A stretch of 64,000 bases of DNA, taken from NCBI GenBank assembly GCA_024644595.1, contig JAHEHL010000004.1:139224-203223 (forward strand), written 5' to 3'. The stretch comes from Porticoccaceae bacterium. Its GTDB lineage: Bacteria > Pseudomonadota > Gammaproteobacteria > Pseudomonadales > Porticoccaceae. Each line of letters starts with the position of its first letter. The first letter of the stretch is position 1. The position numbers and the translations under genes were made by a program. The notes under the pieces are model-generated. The model searched no databases, had not been told where the DNA came from, and saw only the letters and a list, made by a program, of their open reading frames with translations. Positions 10,261 to 17,249 of the stretch are shown one piece after another.

Positions 10261-10992
10261 CTAGTAATCTTCAAAATCACCGAAGTCGTCTTCAATCGCA
10301 CCATCATTGACCAGATATCGACTGCGCTGTAGGTAGACATCTCGTATAAACAGATATTTGTCACCGGAGATAATCTCGTCAATCTCCAACAGATCAACCC
10401 GAGTCGTTAACAAATCTAAAGCCCTGGCAGAATTTCTAAATCGAACGTCATCACTGTAAGCAAGTGGATTGGTAAAGCTATCAATAATTTTACTTGGTGC
10501 ATCTCGCAGCGTTGAAGGTCCATAGAGTGGCAACATCAAGTATGGCCCTTCGCCCACTCCCCAGACCGCCAGGGTCTGACCGAAATCTTCGCCCTCACTT
10601 TTGCTGATACCAGCACGTTGAGCCACATCAAACAGACCTGCAACACCAATGGTTGAGTTGATCAAAAAACGGCTACCATCATGGCCCGCCTGCTTGAATT
10701 TTCCCTGCAACAGGTCGTTGACCACATTGGTAATCTCATTCAGGTTGCTGAAAAAGTTACCAATGCCCTTCTCCAGAGGATCTGGCATCAGGTTGGTATA
10801 GGCCACCGCAACCGGACGCAGTGCATAGTGGTCGAGACGCTCGTTAACATAAAAAATATCGCGATTGAGTGCCTCTAGTCTGTCCTTGTCTTTATCAGCC
10901 TGCGCCAGAGATGCAGATGACAGAGATAAGCTCAAGATAGCCAGCAATTTTACAAACAGTGGCCTCAACGCAGTCGTGGGGGGAAGTTTCAT
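10261..10992 (-). CDS. mlaA: MlaA/VacJ-family outer-membrane lipid asymmetry protein
   Basis: MlaA removes misplaced phospholipids from the outer leaflet of the outer membrane and passes them to MlaC. The 243-residue protein has the family core: LNRDIFYVNERLDHYALRP, then NFFSNLNEITNVVNDLLQGK, then FLINSTIGVAGLFDVA, EDFGQTLAVWGVGEGPYLMLPLYGP and the DAPSK helix. The signal sequence (about residues 1-32, ending SSASLAQA) has no lipobox cysteine. E. coli MlaA is a lipoprotein; this one looks like a signal peptidase I substrate. The mla ABC transporter genes are not in the window. It lies between the hvf operon and the STAS/PP2C pair, on the same strand as both. Confidence 0.92.
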   Translation of the reverse strand: MKLPPTTALRPLFVKLLAILSLSLSSASLAQADKDKDRLEALNRDIFYVNERLDHYALRPVAVAYTNLMPDPLEKGIGNFFSNLNEITNVVNDLLQGKFKQAGHDGSRFLINSTIGVAGLFDVAQRAGISKSEGEDFGQTLAVWGVGEGPYLMLPLYGPSTLRDAPSKIIDSFTNPLAYSDDVRFRNSARALDLLTTRVDLLEIDEIISGDKYLFIRDVYLQRSRYLVNDGAIEDDFGDFEDY

Positions 10993-11086: not shown

Positions 11087-11857
11087 TTAGCTGAATCCGC
11101 AGATAATATCCCTGTCGCGAAGGCTTTTTAGCAGATCGGCACCAAATTCAAGTAATACATCAGGATCGGGGTATTCCAGTTCAGCGGCCAATTGTCGCAG
11201 CGCCTGTTTGCCACTAAGGCGTTCTGCCGTAAGAATTTGTAGCAAGCGCTGGGTAATCAGATTGATCTCGACAAACCCAACCCGCATTTGCCTGTCCCGA
11301 TAGACCACAATATGGGTGCCTGAGGCCGGTGGCTCCGTTGGCTGAAATTGAGGACCAATTTTGTGTACAGGAAATTGATAACTGAGAGGCCAGGCCAGTG
11401 GCGATACCATCGGTCTATTGTTTAGCACATCCCCCTCTACCTCGACCTCGGGAAACTCATCAGTGGAGACATCCAATGCTAATTCAACCCACTCATAATG
11501 GGCTAGCTCAAGCAAAAATGCTGGATCCTGTGCGAGGGGAATCCGCTCGGCCTCAAGATAGCGCAGAAATTCCTGACTAATCTCCAAAAAATAGGGGCTC
11601 AGACTCTGATGACGGTGAACAAAGTCTCTTACCATGGTCGTCCAGTGGTCCGTAGTCATGATCGATTTGAGCACGGGAAACCCGCTGGCGATAAATGCCT
11701 CGATATTATTAAAAAACAGCTCACGATAAATTTTGAGACGGCGGTCCTCTATCCCTGATGGGGGCGGGTTTACCTGTGGGTTGCGAATATGGGCCGCAAA
11801 CTGGAATTGGCTTTTTTGAAAGTCGTACTGCCGATCGCGTTCAAATTCACTTTTCAT
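11087..11857 (-). CDS. hvfC: HvfC/BufC-like DUF2063 partner protein
   Basis: This 256-residue cytoplasmic protein is of the DUF2063 (putative DNA-binding) family. The N-terminal helical domain contains R-L-K-I-Y-R-E-L-F-F-N-N-I-E-A-F, a family hallmark in which the Y-R-x-L-x-x-N-N pattern is conserved. The C-terminal part (about 160-256) is a winged-helix-like domain. In studied bufferin and Haemophilus HvfA systems, DUF2063 proteins are not regulators: they are recognition partners that dock the precursor peptide onto the DUF692 enzyme. Here the ATG overlaps the hvfB stop (ATGA), so stoichiometric production is likely. This is the last gene of the three-gene operon. Confidence 0.9.
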   Translation of the reverse strand: MKSEFERDRQYDFQKSQFQFAAHIRNPQVNPPPSGIEDRRLKIYRELFFNNIEAFIASGFPVLKSIMTTDHWTTMVRDFVHRHQSLSPYFLEISQEFLRYLEAERIPLAQDPAFLLELAHYEWVELALDVSTDEFPEVEVEGDVLNNRPMVSPLAWPLSYQFPVHKIGPQFQPTEPPASGTHIVVYRDRQMRVGFVEINLITQRLLQILTAERLSGKQALRQLAAELEYPDPDVLLEFGADLLKSLRDRDIICGFS

Positions 11858-12720
11858 GCGACATCTAACCGAATGTCTTTGACGGCTCCATCCGGCTGGC
11901 TATGCCGCTGCTGGCAAATTTTTATCTGTTCTACTTCAGCAAGCAGTTCCGCAACCGGTGGGATATTAAAGTCTCTCTCCAGCAGCGTCGGGAAAACGCC
12001 AAACGTTTTGTAGGCGACATCGAGCAACTGCCATACCGGATCGCTGACATCGGCACCATGCGTGTCGACGCGTAAATCTTCAGCCTCCCGGTAATGTCCG
12101 GCAATATGACCATAGGCGATGCGCTCTCCGGGCAGCGCAGCAAGAAACGCGAAAGGGTCGTAGTTGTGATTAATGCTGTTGACATAAATATTGTTTACAT
12201 CAAGCAGCAAATGACAATCGGCTCGCTCCAGCACGGCATTGAGAAAATCAATCTCCGTCATCTCCTGTTGCGGTGCGGCATAGTAGGAAACGTTTTCCAT
12301 GGCGATGCGCTCGCCAAGAAAGTCCTGCACCTGAACGATTCGCTGCGCGACATAATCTACCGCTTGCTCAGTGAAAGGGATTGGCATCAGATCGTAGAGG
12401 TGACCGCTGTCACTGCAATAGCTGAGATGCTCGCTGTAACAACGTATTGAGTGCTCGGCGATAAACTGTTTGATGGCACGCAGCAGGTCCCAGTCAAGGG
12501 CTGAGGGAGACCCTATCGAGAGGGACAGGCCGTGAATAACTGTGGGGAATTTTTCGGTGTACTGCCTGAGGGCCGCCCCATATCGGCCACCGACACCGAT
12601 CCAGTTCTCCGGCGCAACCTCCATAAACTGAACCTGCTCAGGAGACACCGAGGAGAGCGGTTCGCACAGCGCGCGCCGCAAGCCCAACCCTGCCCCCTGA
12701 ACAGGGTAATGCTGTTTCAT
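11854..12720 (-). CDS. hvfB: HvfB/BufB-like DUF692 multinuclear non-heme iron oxidative enzyme
   Basis: This 288-residue TIM-barrel enzyme is of the DUF692/MNIO family. MNIO enzymes use two or three iron ions and O2 to modify cysteines of ribosomal peptides, for example to oxazolone/thioamide or thiooxazole groups. The probable metal ligands are all visible: H63 (IHGLSLS), H98 (SEHLSY), E142 (MENVSYY), D174 (LLDVNNIYVN), H205/H209 (GHIAGHY), D219/H221 (VDTHG) and E248 (LLERD). I chose ATG 12720 because family members begin shortly before GAGLGLRR; a GTG at 12738 is possible. It lies about 60 bp after the precursor gene and overlaps hvfC. Its substrate is almost certainly the Cys-rich peptide encoded upstream. 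Confidence 0.92.
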   Translation of the reverse strand: MKQHYPVQGAGLGLRRALCEPLSSVSPEQVQFMEVAPENWIGVGGRYGAALRQYTEKFPTVIHGLSLSIGSPSALDWDLLRAIKQFIAEHSIRCYSEHLSYCSDSGHLYDLMPIPFTEQAVDYVAQRIVQVQDFLGERIAMENVSYYAAPQQEMTEIDFLNAVLERADCHLLLDVNNIYVNSINHNYDPFAFLAALPGERIAYGHIAGHYREAEDLRVDTHGADVSDPVWQLLDVAYKTFGVFPTLLERDFNIPPVAELLAEVEQIKICQQRHSQPDGAVKDIRLDVA

Positions 12721-12783
12721 TGCCTTGCTATCCCGCACTAAATACTACACCCAGCGGGAGAAACAACTCAGACAACAGGACCA

Positions 12784-13170
12784 CTAGCCGGCCCCACCAC
12801 ATTTGCCTTCACTATCCGCTTTTTCACCACCGCACTTACCTTCGGCTTCGGCTTTGTCTTCACCACACGCTCCCTCGGCATCAGCTTTACCTTCACCACA
12901 TTTACCTTCAGCTTTGGCCTTACCTTCACCACATTTGCCTTCACCGCATTTGCCTTCTTTTTTAGCTTTGCCTTCGCCGCACTTGCCTTCCCCGCATTTC
13001 CCTTCGGCGTGACCATCAGCCAACATGTAGCCTGACCGAAGCTGATCGGCCTGGAACGGATTTTCGGTGGCAGACGCCGCAGATGCCAAAGCAATAGCTG
13101 AAAGCGCTGTGGCAGCAACAAAGGCTGATCCAATAGCAGTGACAAGTGGCTTAGTGTTGTGTTTATTCAT
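12784..13170 (-). CDS. hvfA: HvfA-like Cys-repeat RiPP precursor (copper-binding peptide candidate)
   Basis: This is a 128-residue secreted precursor. A signal peptide spans about residues 1-34 (hydrophobic stretch, then LASAASA). A short spacer is followed from residue 56 by a repetitive tail. The tail holds seven perfect EGKCG pentapeptides and one EGACG variant; the eight cysteines are C59, C64, C75, C80, C91, C102, C113 and C124. Spacing is 5 or 11 residues, because an 11-residue unit (EGKCG plus EGKAKA-like) is repeated. In Haemophilus HvfA, EGKCG cysteines are converted by HvfB/HvfC to oxazolone-thioamide groups that bind copper. The same chemistry is inferred here from hvfB and hvfC downstream. 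The start is set by AAGGAG before ATG 13170; a longer frame to 13287 lacks a ribosome-binding site. Confidence 0.93.
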   Translation of the reverse strand: MNKHNTKPLVTAIGSAFVAATALSAIALASAASATENPFQADQLRSGYMLADGHAEGKCGEGKCGEGKAKKEGKCGEGKCGEGKAKAEGKCGEGKADAEGACGEDKAEAEGKCGGEKADSEGKCGGAG

Positions 13171-13185
13171 CGACTTTCTCCTTAT

Positions 13186-13261: not shown

Positions 13262-13275
13262 GAAACAGAAGTTTC
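13262..13275. promoter_or_regulatory. Short inverted repeat in the probable hvfA promoter region
   Basis: GAAAC-agaa-GTTTC lies about 90 bp upstream of the hvfA ATG. On the minus strand it overlaps a TATATT box that could serve as a -10 element. The arms are only 5 bp, so chance occurrence is quite possible. Confidence 0.25.
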
Positions 13276-13304: not shown

Positions 13305-16300
13305 CTAACCAGCCTGAACGCGAAAGCGTTTTAACTGCTCATCTATTTCTGACCAGCGTTTCACCAGACGCTTTTGTGAAACCGGAACGCGAGTTTTTAG
13401 CTGTTGGGCAAATAATGACACGCGATACTCTTCAACCAGCCAACAGTAGTCGAGCAACATGGCTTCCAGCTCACTGGAAAGCGGCTGATCGTTCACTAGT
13501 GCGTCTTTACACGGCATAAGGAGGGCATTAATTTCCTTAATTGCATCACGATCTTTGCTCTGTTGGGTGGTCAATTTTTCCAGCCGCACCTGAATCGCAC
13601 GTATATAGCGCGGATATTGACCAACAATCTCAACGCTGAGTGATTTCAGGGTCTCCTTCGAGAACAACCAATCCAGTTGATGGCGAATATCCTCTGCCGC
13701 ATAGATCGCTGGCAACCCGAGGCTGCGCAGGCTCTTCTGCAATTCGTGCAACTTTGGCAGCAACGACACAATCACTTCGGCATAGTCCTGCGCCAAGCCC
13801 ACTACCTGGGCGATGCCACGCTCAAAAGCTTGATCAAATTGCTGTTGATCTCGAACAATGATCTCTTCGGCAGAGCGCGATGGCAGAAAGATAGCCTTTT
13901 CAAAACTGGCACTTACCAGTGCATCGACTAACTGCTGGCGCTCTCCGATTCTGGCGGCGGTGAGTGCGAGATCCTTGCCTCGCAAAAGATGTTTATTGAG
14001 ATACTTTACCTGCTCTCGACCGCGCAGCAGGGCCAGGCGCAATTGCCCTTCACGACTTACCTTCTCCGCTTGCAGTGGATTATCCATCACTTCTAACGCC
14101 ACTGAATCGCCACAGTCCCGCAGTGCCGGCCAGGCCTTTATACTGACACCCGCATGATCCAACGCGATTTCCTGCGGCAACTCATCAAAATCCCACTCGG
14201 TAATTCCCTGACGTGACGCACTTTGATCTGCCGCCTGTTCCAGTCCTGCGCTAATCTGCTGCTTAAAATCGCGCTGTAACTGTTCGAGGCTGCGCGCCAT
14301 CGCCACTCTGCTGCCGTGTTCATCCTCAAGGACAAAATTCATCTGGTACCAGCTGTCGAGACTCTCTGGGCGCCACTGCTCTGGCTCAATAACAACACCG
14401 CTGATACCACGCAAGTGTTCCGCAAGCACTTCAGTCAGCGGGCGATCCTGGGGCTTGACTTTGCTTAAAAAGCCATCGACATAGTTCGGAACCGGAACAA
14501 AATGACGTCGAGTCTGCTTGGGTAAACTTTTTACCAGCGCGACGCACTTGTCACGTAACATCCCGGGCACCAGCCACTCAAACAGGTAGCGCGGCAGTTG
14601 ATGCAACAGTGCCAACGGCACAATCGCACTGACCCCATCGTCACTGTGGCCGGGCTGAAAATGGTAGCGCAATTGATAACATATACCCTGCCAGCTAATG
14701 GTCTCGGGAAACTGTGCCTGCTCGTGGTCAGAGAGAACGCGTAACAACAAATACTCTTTTTCCAACATTAGCAGACGCGGGGTTTCAGCCTCGGCCTGTT
14801 TGCGCCATTTCTCAAACGCCGGTAAGTTGTAGATACCTTCAGGAATACGCTGATCGTAAAAATCAAAGATCACCTGCTGCTCGGCCAGCAAATCGCGACG
14901 GCGAAAACGGTCCTCCAACGCCTGCAGCTCTTCAACCAGTTTATGGTTGTGACGATAAAAGGCGCCTTTACCGCGATAACCCTCTTCCACCAGCGCCTGC
15001 TGAATAAAAACGTTGCGCGCCTCCCGGGGCGCGACCTGGCCATAGACTCGATTTTTATTTTCAACAATGCTCAGACCAAATAATGTCTGGCGCTCTTTGG
15101 CCATGACCTGGCCCGATTTCTTGCTGTAAAAAGGTTCGCTGTAACTCTTTTTTACCAAGTGCGCGGCGAGTGGCTCGAGCCAGTCTGAATCAATTTTGGC
15201 CACGGTCAGAGCAAACTGTTTACTGGTCTCCATCAGCGAGCCTGCCATCACCCATTTGGGCGGCTTCTTACTCAAACCAGAGCCAGGAAAAATAAAGAAC
15301 TTGCGATTTCGGGTGCCAAGGAATTCCCATTTATCTTGCAAAATGCCGACTTGCCCGAGCAATCCGGATAGCAACGAACGATGCACCGCATCAGCCTCTG
15401 CCGGCTGGGAGTTATAGCTCAACTTGAGGCCACGGCAAGCAGTATGGACCTGGTGGTGCAGGTCACGCCATTCGCGTATCCGCAGGTAAGAAATGTAGTT
15501 CGCTTTGCAATATCGGCTGAACTGATTGCTCGATAATTGCTGCCGCTGCTGTTCAAAGTGGCGCCATACATTTAGCAGAGAGAGAAAATCAGAGTTCGGC
15601 TCCTGCCACTGCCTGTGGCACTGATCAGCTGCCTGCCGTTTGTCGGCCGGTCGTTCGCGCGGATCCTGAATACTTAGACCGGAGGTAATAATCATCACCT
15701 CCGCAAGGCAACCATTATCAGCCGCTTCCAGCAGCATCCGTGCAAAACGCGGATCAAGTGGAATAGTCACCAAACGCTTACCAAGATGAGTCAGTTTACC
15801 GTCGCTGGTGACTGCCTGAAGCTCTTCCAGTAGTTTGAAACCGTCGCTGATCAGACGCGGGTCTGGCGGGTCGACAAACGGAAAGCTGCGGATATCACCA
15901 ATCCGCAATTGCAACATTTGTAAAATCACCGCCGCCAAATTGGTTCGCACAATTTCTGGGTCGGTAAATTCAGGGCGGCCTTGAAAATCCTCTTCAGAAT
16001 AGAGCCTGTAACAGATCCCTTCGGCCACTCGCCCACAGCGGCCCGCGCGCTGATTAGCGCTGGCCTGAGAGATCGCTTCAATCGGCAGTCGCTGCACTTT
16101 GGTACGAAAGCTATAGCGAGAGACCCGCGCGCGACCGGTGTCGATAACGTAGCGAATACCCGGCACTGTTAGTGACGTTTCTGCCACATTGGTACTCAAC
16201 ACCACACGTCTTCCACGATGTGGCGAAAAAATTTTGCTCTGTTCCGCAAGGCTCAGACGCGCATAGAGTGGAACAACCTCTGTGTGCGGCAACTGGGCGC

Positions 16301-17249
16301 GTTTAATCGCCAAACTGACTTCGCGGATCTCGCGCTCGCCGCTGAGAAAAACCAGCACATCACCCTGTTTTTGATTGCTGTGAATATCCTGCAGGCAATC
16401 GACAATCATCTGATCGCGATCACTCTCCAGGTCATCCGGATGGTTGTAGATAACCTCTACCGGAAAACTTCGCCCGGAAACTTCTACCACTGGAGCATCG
16501 TTAAAGTGTTTGGAAAATTTGCCAACGTCGATTGTCGCCGAGGTAATAATTATTTTCAGGTCGGGCCGCTGTGGCAGAAGATTCTTAAGGTAACCAAGCA
16601 AAAAATCGATATTCAGACTACGCTCGTGGGCCTCGTCGATAATAATTGTGTCGTAAGCACTGAGAAACCGATCACGCTGAATTTCAGCCAGCAAGATGCC
16701 GTCAGTCATCAGTTTCAGCAGGCTGTTGGGCGAGCTCTGATCGGAGAAACGCACCTGGTAACCTACGGCGCCGCCTAACTCAACGCCCAATTCCTCGGCA
16801 ATACGGTTGGCCACGGTGCGCGCCGCAATACGTCTCGGCTGAGTATGGCCAATCAGACCTTTGACACCGCGTCCGGCCTGCAGGCAGATCTTGGGCAGCT
16901 GGGTGGTCTTACCGGAACCGGTTTCACCCGCCACTACAATGACCTGATGTTTCACAAGAAGCTCGGCAATCTCATCGGCGCGAGCACTGACCGGGAGATC
17001 CGGATAGCTAAAATCGGGAACCATTTGCCGACGACGCTCTGTTAACGCCTGAGTTGCAAGCAGCGCCTCGTGCCACGTCTGCCACGCCGCGGTTATATCG
17101 ACACCACGCTTCCGCTGCTCTTGCATCTGTTGGAGTTGGCGGTGCAGGCGATATTTGTCGCGAGTGCTCGCAGCCTCTTCAAGCAGATGTTGGAGTTGTT
17201 GAAAGTCCTGCTCAGTGCTTGGCAGGTCGGTCGCTGGCAGATCTGTCAT
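13305..17249 (-). CDS. hrpA: ATP-dependent RNA helicase HrpA
   Basis: This is a 1314-residue DEAH-box helicase of the HrpA type, acting in the cytoplasm on RNA; HrpA is linked to mRNA processing and rescue of stalled ribosomes. Walker A GETGSGKT is at 108-115 and DEAH at 205-208, followed by SAT, the helicase C domain with QRAGRCGR, the HA2 and OB-fold domains, and the long C-terminal DUF3418-type region that distinguishes HrpA from HrpB. Length is normal (E. coli HrpA is 1300). It is 9 bp downstream of dnaQ on the same strand and may share its transcript. The stop is about 135 bp upstream of hvfA, so hvfA needs its own promoter or read-through. Confidence 0.96.
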   Translation of the reverse strand: MTDLPATDLPSTEQDFQQLQHLLEEAASTRDKYRLHRQLQQMQEQRKRGVDITAAWQTWHEALLATQALTERRRQMVPDFSYPDLPVSARADEIAELLVKHQVIVVAGETGSGKTTQLPKICLQAGRGVKGLIGHTQPRRIAARTVANRIAEELGVELGGAVGYQVRFSDQSSPNSLLKLMTDGILLAEIQRDRFLSAYDTIIIDEAHERSLNIDFLLGYLKNLLPQRPDLKIIITSATIDVGKFSKHFNDAPVVEVSGRSFPVEVIYNHPDDLESDRDQMIVDCLQDIHSNQKQGDVLVFLSGEREIREVSLAIKRAQLPHTEVVPLYARLSLAEQSKIFSPHRGRRVVLSTNVAETSLTVPGIRYVIDTGRARVSRYSFRTKVQRLPIEAISQASANQRAGRCGRVAEGICYRLYSEEDFQGRPEFTDPEIVRTNLAAVILQMLQLRIGDIRSFPFVDPPDPRLISDGFKLLEELQAVTSDGKLTHLGKRLVTIPLDPRFARMLLEAADNGCLAEVMIITSGLSIQDPRERPADKRQAADQCHRQWQEPNSDFLSLLNVWRHFEQQRQQLSSNQFSRYCKANYISYLRIREWRDLHHQVHTACRGLKLSYNSQPAEADAVHRSLLSGLLGQVGILQDKWEFLGTRNRKFFIFPGSGLSKKPPKWVMAGSLMETSKQFALTVAKIDSDWLEPLAAHLVKKSYSEPFYSKKSGQVMAKERQTLFGLSIVENKNRVYGQVAPREARNVFIQQALVEEGYRGKGAFYRHNHKLVEELQALEDRFRRRDLLAEQQVIFDFYDQRIPEGIYNLPAFEKWRKQAEAETPRLLMLEKEYLLLRVLSDHEQAQFPETISWQGICYQLRYHFQPGHSDDGVSAIVPLALLHQLPRYLFEWLVPGMLRDKCVALVKSLPKQTRRHFVPVPNYVDGFLSKVKPQDRPLTEVLAEHLRGISGVVIEPEQWRPESLDSWYQMNFVLEDEHGSRVAMARSLEQLQRDFKQQISAGLEQAADQSASRQGITEWDFDELPQEIALDHAGVSIKAWPALRDCGDSVALEVMDNPLQAEKVSREGQLRLALLRGREQVKYLNKHLLRGKDLALTAARIGERQQLVDALVSASFEKAIFLPSRSAEEIIVRDQQQFDQAFERGIAQVVGLAQDYAEVIVSLLPKLHELQKSLRSLGLPAIYAAEDIRHQLDWLFSKETLKSLSVEIVGQYPRYIRAIQVRLEKLTTQQSKDRDAIKEINALLMPCKDALVNDQPLSSELEAMLLDYCWLVEEYRVSLFAQQLKTRVPVSQKRLVKRWSEIDEQLKRFRVQAG

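Follow-up and report, generated by a model that had tools for sequence, protein, structure and literature searches.

Organization of the locus

The DNA analyzed in our study, hereafter the window, is a stretch of 64,000 nucleotides from a Porticoccaceae bacterium (NCBI GenBank assembly GCA_024644595.1, contig JAHEHL010000004.1). On its minus strand, it carries three genes in the order hvfA-hvfB-hvfC, which encode the precursor of a ribosomally synthesized and post-translationally modified peptide (RiPP), an MNIO enzyme (DUF692) and a DUF2063 partner (Table 1). A preliminary description had placed these genes at 11087..13170, and all three were found there with open frames; hvfB and hvfC overlap by 4 bases, and the partner matches PF09836 with 89.3 bits. 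The source genome (2.38 Mb in 10 contigs, 98.9% complete) contains a single PF05114 match, a single locus for the EGKCG model and a single mlaA at E <= 0.001. The host is a bacterium near the SAR92 clade (Porticoccaceae). Its nearest HvfB kin (L003-L019 and L045, 75-85% identity) are mostly labelled Porticoccaceae, SAR92 or uncultured Pseudomonadales. It is important to note that our counts over loci cover the 80 best of 227 relatives and hence the closest kin by HvfB; this set may omit records of the window's own genome, and it overlaps in organisms with the 50 genomes of the genus considered below, so the two are not independent samples.

Table 1. Features of the hvfABC locus and its flanks; positions are those of the window.
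Feature	Positions	Strand	Basis
mlaA, downstream neighbour	10261..10992	-	PF04333, 237 bits
hvfC, PME-type 1 partner, DUF2063 + NGO1945_C, 256 aa	11087..11857	-	PF09836, PF22106, NF050145
hvfB, MNIO (DUF692), 288 aa	11854..12720	-	PF05114, NF003818, 3BWW match
hvfA-type RiPP precursor gene, 128 aa	12784..13170, stop included	-	translation; NF050137
Core with eight xCG motifs: two 5-residue Cys pairs and four isolated at 11-residue spacing	12796..13005	-	
EGACG, the sole motif without Lys, at an isolated position	12862..12876	-	
Conserved leader stretch NPFQADQLRSGY, residues 37-48	13027..13062	-	NPF then GY in relatives
Probable Sec signal peptide, residues 1-34, cut ASA/TE	13069..13170	-	by inspection
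AAGGAG, probable hvfA ribosome-binding site	13178..13183	-	sequence; visible in upstream alignment
-10-like element GTCAGAA	13247..13253	-	GTC[A/T]GAA in 15/15 aligned upstream regions
-35-like element GAAACTT	13269..13275	-	GAAACTT/GGAACTT in 14/15 aligned upstream regions
hrpA-type helicase gene (presumed), upstream neighbour, outside the system	13305..17249	-	

Family assignment of the three products

The three products were compared with curated models of the HvfA and bufferin families, as the preliminary description had proposed. The precursor reached 56.2 bits with the HvfA-family domain model NF050137 (cut-off 19.5), the enzyme 438.8 bits with the HvfB model NF003818 (cut-off 360) and the partner 315.5 bits with the HvfC model NF050145 (cut-off 142); the BufB cut-off was not reached. 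Scores of this size lie well beyond chance. In Pfam, the enzyme matches PF05114 with 347.6 bits, and the C-terminus of the partner matches PF22106, the NGO1945 C-terminal domain. Among solved structures, the nearest in sequence to HvfB is 3BWW (E 3.8e-74), and the nearest to HvfC is 3DEE (E 3.4e-10). An in-frame GTG at 12738 offers an alternative start for hvfB; we prefer the ATG because Arg15 and Arg16 then fit the numbering of FonB, the enzyme of the fontiphorin system.

Residue conservation was determined in 81 HvfB sequences, those of the 80 loci and the window. Positions H63, H98, E142, D174, N176, N177, H205, H209, D219, H221 and E248 are invariant in all of them, and the same is true of R15, R16, D250 and F251, which correspond by motif to Arg15, Arg16, Asp249 and Phe250 of FonB. 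These four residues have been tied to substrate choice and catalysis, with Asp249 as the base (PMC13097082). Similarly, N175, D242 and H244 have been reported as essential in HvfB (PMC13419390). By motif, the Asn of DVNN and the Asp and His of DTH match them in the enzyme of the window. The invariant positions include those that we take to be putative iron ligands. These putative ligands, of which the preliminary description had claimed a full set, are present without exception in the 81 sequences.

The HvfABC-type RiPP operon with an EGKCG precursor that had been proposed at the outset is supported by the curated models, by the order of the genes and by the conserved residues. Judged by its sequence, this operon is a new captophorin of the EGKCG branch, to which oxazolin and fontiphorin belong.

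The precursor peptide

The translated core contains exactly seven EGKCG motifs and one EGACG, the number originally counted. Successive Cys residues are 5, 11, 5, 11, 11, 11 and 11 residues apart, a layout of two 16-residue two-motif units followed by 11-residue one-motif units, with tandem arrays of 48 and 33 bases as its counterpart in the DNA; four Cys are paired and four are isolated. By inspection, the N-terminus is a probable Sec-type signal peptide without a lipobox Cys. After the signal peptide, NPF and then GY occur in 62 of the 67 precursors that appear complete at their N-terminus; an alignment of 26 relatives was hand-picked among NPF carriers, and the invariance of NPF in it was not used. 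A conserved leader had already been noted in Microbulbifer MmrA, where a RiPP recognition element of MmrC was modelled on the leader (PMC12538549). In a shortened FonA, every single Ala change ahead of the core was tolerated (PMC13097082), so no single leader residue need be essential. The predicted fold of the precursor had a mean predicted local distance difference test score (pLDDT) of 44.5 and a predicted template modelling score (pTM) of 0.11, and because of these low values neither a structural claim nor a fold search was based on it.

Of the 80 related loci, 73 have an EGKCG-type open reading frame (ORF) ahead of hvfB, and none was found in the other seven. Just 11-811 bases of upstream DNA are present in four of the latter (L009, L043, L076 and L081), and three Thiocapsa loci (L030, L041 and L057) have hvfB and hvfC and no such ORF in 3544 or 3985 upstream bases. 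The number of motifs per precursor has a median of 8 and a range of 2-16 (73 precursors, some of them cut at contig ends). The preliminary description was correct about the regular 5- and 11-residue spacing but not about an unusual number of repeats. Repeat number was rejected as a novelty because eight is the median, and fontiphorin has seven modified sites (PMC13097082).

Two proposed classes of repeat units

In this analysis, we considered as precursors those ORFs upstream of hvfB with at least two [E/D/K][G/A]xCG motifs, x being any residue, and we called a motif paired when another Cys-Gly lies 5 residues away and isolated otherwise. The count covers 73 precursors, from 72 of the 80 loci and the window, L054 having been dropped for its masked bases. 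Of the 427 paired motifs, 406 have Lys before the Cys; of the 122 isolated motifs, 64 do (Fisher p 9e-27, a value that ignores relatedness). Both classes are present in 46 precursors: 24 of these have Lys more often in their paired motifs, none has it less often there, and 22 show equal frequencies. In the 18 precursors of SAR92 type, Lys is found in 111/111 paired versus 17/25 isolated motifs. When the loci are grouped by HvfB clusters at 75% identity, both classes are held by 17 of 25 clusters, with nine for the difference, none against and eight ties (sign p 0.004); at 70% identity, the one cluster for, none against and two ties give no power. In isolated motifs, Lys is replaced by Ser in 49 cases, by Ala in 4, by Thr in 3, and by His and Gln in 1 each. 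The classes do not differ in the Glu of the first position (p 0.55) or the Gly of the second (p 0.31), which indicates that the isolated motifs are not merely decayed in general. There are exceptions: Lys is missing from 21 of the 427 paired motifs, and the pairs of L060 are EGSCG throughout. The extreme case is the precursor of L062, a long EGSCGGDKGA run with EGKCGEGKCG pairs only at its two ends.

This pattern in the precursor sequences suggests that the repeat units fall into two classes, of which only the paired one firmly keeps Lys. As a tentative explanation, to which we give somewhat less than even credence, the tandem motifs would be the real two-thiooxazole copper units and would need Lys, and the isolated motifs would form a second class, whose processing would be different, slow or absent, so that Lys could change there to Ser, Ala or Thr; these motifs may serve as simple thiols or as spacers. 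At the Lys position, FonBC accepts Ala, Arg and Thr but not Phe or Glu (PMC13097082); since Ala is accepted, the EGACG of the window may well be modified. In the literature covered, which left out most subscription papers and supplements, there was no earlier report of the Lys difference, and a search for EGSCG as the start of a word returned none, although a motif inside a longer printed sequence would escape it. The case for novelty is accordingly weak.

Candidate promoter upstream of hvfA

Two conserved elements with a spacer of 15 bases between them precede hvfA, and the -10-like one ends 76 bases ahead of the gene. The pattern GAAACTT/GGAACTT-N15-GTC[A/T]GAA is found in 14 of the 15 hrpA-hvfA gaps aligned (14 loci with hrpA upstream and the window; L018 and L032 also have hrpA but were not part of the alignment), and L003 keeps the -10-like part only. 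The regions upstream in L018 and L032 score 12 and 11 of 14, respectively. Outside the aligned 14, a score of at least 12 was obtained in 5 of 50 upstream regions (13 in L033; 12 in L018, L020, L026 and L050), four of these five with the 15-base spacing, against about 2% in shuffles. No shuffled upstream region, out of 1280 (64 regions x 20), attained 14/14, although the consensus had been taken from the scored sequences, and the reverse-strand control gave 12 in 3 of 64 regions and never more. These distributions show clear conservation among close kin and a weak extension to more distant ones. In the whole genome, there is a single exact copy of the pattern, the one ahead of hvfA, and no copy of the reversed control pattern.

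The AAC in the -35 and the GTC in the -10 element are reminiscent of extracytoplasmic function (ECF) sigma promoters, and transcription of hvfA probably starts at this ECF-sigma-type candidate. There are precedents for such control in related loci. The Neisseria rpoE operon NMB2140-2145 is under ECF control, and its order is identical to that of NGO1948-1943 (PMC2893595), which therefore includes NGO1945, the PME-type 1 protein of structure 3DEE (PMC12452194). The targets of Caulobacter sigma-F include DUF2282, DUF692 and DUF2063 genes, with the site GTAACC-N16-CGAA (PMC3511200). Matches to sigma factors in the genome comprise one RpoE over its cut-off (307 bits versus 236) and eight weaker ones. 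RpoE was considered and rejected as the regulator of hvfA: the orthologue is present, yet its own upstream region scores 10 of 14, which is background. Scans for sigma-70-type promoters (6 found versus 3.7 expected) and for terminators (4 found versus 3.9 expected, all on the plus strand) gave nothing usable.

Genomic neighbourhood

As the preliminary description had it, mlaA follows the operon; the gap between hvfC and mlaA is 94 bases. The complete arrangement hrpA-hvfA-hvfB-hvfC-mlaA is conserved in 17 of 22 genus-mate loci (L083-L104, the window apart), and the other five (L085, L088, L099, L100 and L102) are short stretches without one flank. HvfB exceeds its cut-off in 23 of the 50 genus genomes, two further genomes have only a fused MNIO under that cut-off, and 25 genomes, some of them incomplete, have no HvfB match; the cassette is missing in about half of the genus. 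We examined 22 of the 27 genus-mates without HvfB over its cut-off. Five were set aside: the mlaA match of G008 is split in two, G014 and G018 lack such a match, and G009 and G012 were outside the 48 drawn. The search in these 22 used eight window proteins only, and L154, L155 and L160 have masked bases. In all of them, hrpA adjoins mlaA in matching orientation, with 90-297 bases between the ends of the two matches in 21. In the remaining one (L145:4508-4939), the space between these two genes is taken up by a piece of a decayed hvfC with internal stops, and the genome gave no HvfB match; at least here, the cassette has been lost and mlaA persists without it. We conclude that mlaA is probably a bystander, outside the system; as a fourth gene of the system, it is mostly rejected by the comparison within the genus, and five Kangiella and Pleionea loci, discussed below, are left unexplained.

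DoxX is not adjacent to the operon, and the genome's sole PF07681 match (E <= 0.001) lies on another contig. This absence, which the preliminary description had pointed out, was confirmed, but it is no oddity: among 61 related loci, 22 have a DoxX match in the ORF that comes first downstream (L018 and L020-L082 minus L045, L023 and L061; ORFs were picked by length, and some neighbours are possibly miscalled), and the fontiphorin cluster has three genes only (PMC13097082). Repeat number and lack of DoxX are ordinary, and so, probably, is the mlaA neighbour.

In addition, two genus-mates (G034 and G013) carry a natural MNIO-DUF2063 fusion of 524 aa (L105:730-2304 and L106:730-2304, both on the minus strand). 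The domains were scanned in L105, where the fusion scores 355 bits with the BufB model (cut-off 310) and also matches PF09836. Upstream of it lie a Cys-containing peptide with a signal-like start and a weak BufA2 match under the cut-off, and a 214-aa protein without an NCBIfam match. This natural fusion resembles the artificial HvfBC fusion reported in PMC13419390.

Comparison with known systems

Among the described systems, fontiphorin (fonABC, Fontimonas thermophila; PMC13097082) is close to the window in its three-gene cluster, its EGKCG-type repeats with seven modified sites, and the Arg-Arg and Asp-Phe residues at matching places. The window, whose product is predicted from the genes, differs by its eight motifs, with four isolated ones at 11-residue spacing. 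The operon of oxazolin (hvfABC, Haemophilus influenzae; PMC13419390) has the HvfB and HvfC families and an EGKCG precursor in common with the window; oxazolin has six modified sites, whereas the precursor of the window stays under the HvfA equivalog cut-off and its locus lies between hrpA and mlaA. Bulbicupramide (mmrABC; PMC12538549) likewise comes from marine gammaproteobacteria (Microbulbifer) and has 5-8 Cys in EGKCG units and a conserved leader, but it is described as obligately conserved in Microbulbifer, unlike the HvfB of our genus. The Buf_EGKCG/oxazolin family of Antoine et al. (PMC12452194) combines a signal peptide and EGKCG repeats with MNIO and PME-type 1 genes; its first type has 17-residue two-motif repeats, in contrast to the 16-residue two-motif and 11-residue one-motif units of the window. 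An operon of this kind in SAR92 was not reported earlier in the literature that we covered, within the limits already given.

Alternative explanations and contrary evidence

The operon shares its enzyme superfamily with two other copper-related systems. If it were a bufferin operon (Buf1/Buf2) instead of one of the EGKCG/oxazolin type, the partner type would be shared too, and the BufB model indeed gives 265.8 bits. This value is below the cut-off of 310, however, whereas HvfB exceeds its own; at E <= 0.001, the precursor matches nothing in Pfam, hence no DUF2282, and it does not match BufA2 either, and Arg16 and Phe251 are as in Lys-Cys enzymes (PMC13097082). We consider a bufferin operon extremely improbable, and we give just as little weight to a methanobactin-like peptide for copper uptake (a chalkophore), for which there is a precedent of copper binding: the MbnB model yields 35.7 bits versus a cut-off of 325, the partner is DUF2063/HvfC, and, by inspection, a probable signal peptide begins the precursor; no search aimed at uptake genes was made. 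A decaying operon whose product has been lost, with the isolated motifs and EGACG as signs of relaxation, would fit the 25 of 50 genus genomes without a match (several incomplete), the genus-mate that retains only an hvfC relic, and the fact that half of the window's motifs are isolated. Against it stand the three open frames, the listed HvfB residues, all of which are kept, and the conservation of Glu and Gly in isolated motifs as in pairs, with Lys alone differing, so that decay is very unlikely. Less remote, but still unlikely, is a joint action of hvfABC and mlaA in envelope protection, combining lipid asymmetry with copper buffering. In its favour, mlaA comes after hvfC in the SAR92-type loci with both genes on the contig except L018 and L032. 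The genes that intervene in these two loci, the 94-base gap, and the 22 of 22 examined genus-mates without HvfB over its cut-off in which mlaA adjoins hrpA speak against it.

Several observations weigh against the captophorin interpretation or parts of it. In the five Kangiella and Pleionea loci (L024, L029, L031, L035 and L038), mlaA directly follows hvfC despite a different upstream neighbour: there is no hrpA match upstream, and a CcmH/CycH-type neighbour was found in L024 and L029, the two tested, a pattern that counts for the joint role and that a pure bystander does not account for. The precursor reaches 48.5 bits with the HvfA equivalog NF050188 (cut-off 95), and two relatives also fall short with 76.5 and 72.8 bits; with NF050137 passed and NF050188 not, the broader HvfA-family domain name is applicable and the strict name HvfA is not. 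As for the sites, FonBC modified a two-motif peptide but not a one-motif peptide (PMC13097082), and the four isolated motifs here may consequently stay unmodified, although MmrBC still modified one Cys of a pair after the other had been changed to Ala (PMC12538549), which weighs against a strict two-Cys requirement. The promoter consensus was derived from the sequences that were scored. Furthermore, upstream of the 8 of 9 sigma-factor genes scanned, there is no strong copy of the promoter (best 8-10 of 14); these scores are background, so no particular sigma factor is named. Finally, adding copper did not bring about detectable expression of mmr in the marine relative Microbulbifer, and the authors of that work were hesitant to assign a copper-protection role (PMC12538549).

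Proposed function and implications

On balance, we are highly confident that this is a captophorin operon of the EGKCG/oxazolin type, with a leader presumably held by HvfC, predicted 5-thiooxazoles from HvfB, predicted export through Sec, putative buffering of copper by Cu(I) binding, a probable ECF-type promoter, and mlaA as a probable bystander. In the proposed scheme, the candidate ECF-sigma-type promoter would drive hvfA, and HvfC would grip the leader of the precursor, possibly at the NPF..GY stretch. By analogy with the characterized systems, HvfB, with a mixed-valent diiron site as reported for HvfB with HvfC (PMC13419390), would remove four hydrogens per Cys and convert Lys-Cys units into 5-thiooxazoles; this loss of 4 H from the Cys of Lys-Cys-Gly has been described, and fontiphorin, oxazolin and gonophorin carry the 5-thiooxazole (PMC13097082). 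Sec would then export the peptide to the periplasm, where, again by analogy, its thiols may bind Cu(I) and buffer copper or oxidative stress of the envelope; fontiphorin, with its seven sites, binds up to four Cu (PMC13097082). The preliminary description had referred to the Haemophilus system as one that makes a copper-binding peptide modified to oxazolone and thioamide; the kind of operon holds, and the chemistry has since been revised to 5-thiooxazole (PMC13097082, PMC13419390).

This operon extends a very common class of RiPPs to a further marine clade and requires no new principle. The candidate ECF-like promoter and the presence or absence of the cassette at one locus provide handles on when these bacteria use the peptide. 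The authors of the fontiphorin work suspected stochastic copper binding (PMC13097082), and the question of how long precursors thread through the enzyme has been raised (PMC12452194). The rule by which sites are chosen bears on whether every Cys is modified and on what the copper-binding unit is, and the Lys difference between paired and isolated motifs makes this question testable with one natural peptide, that of the window, which has both kinds of Cys in equal number.

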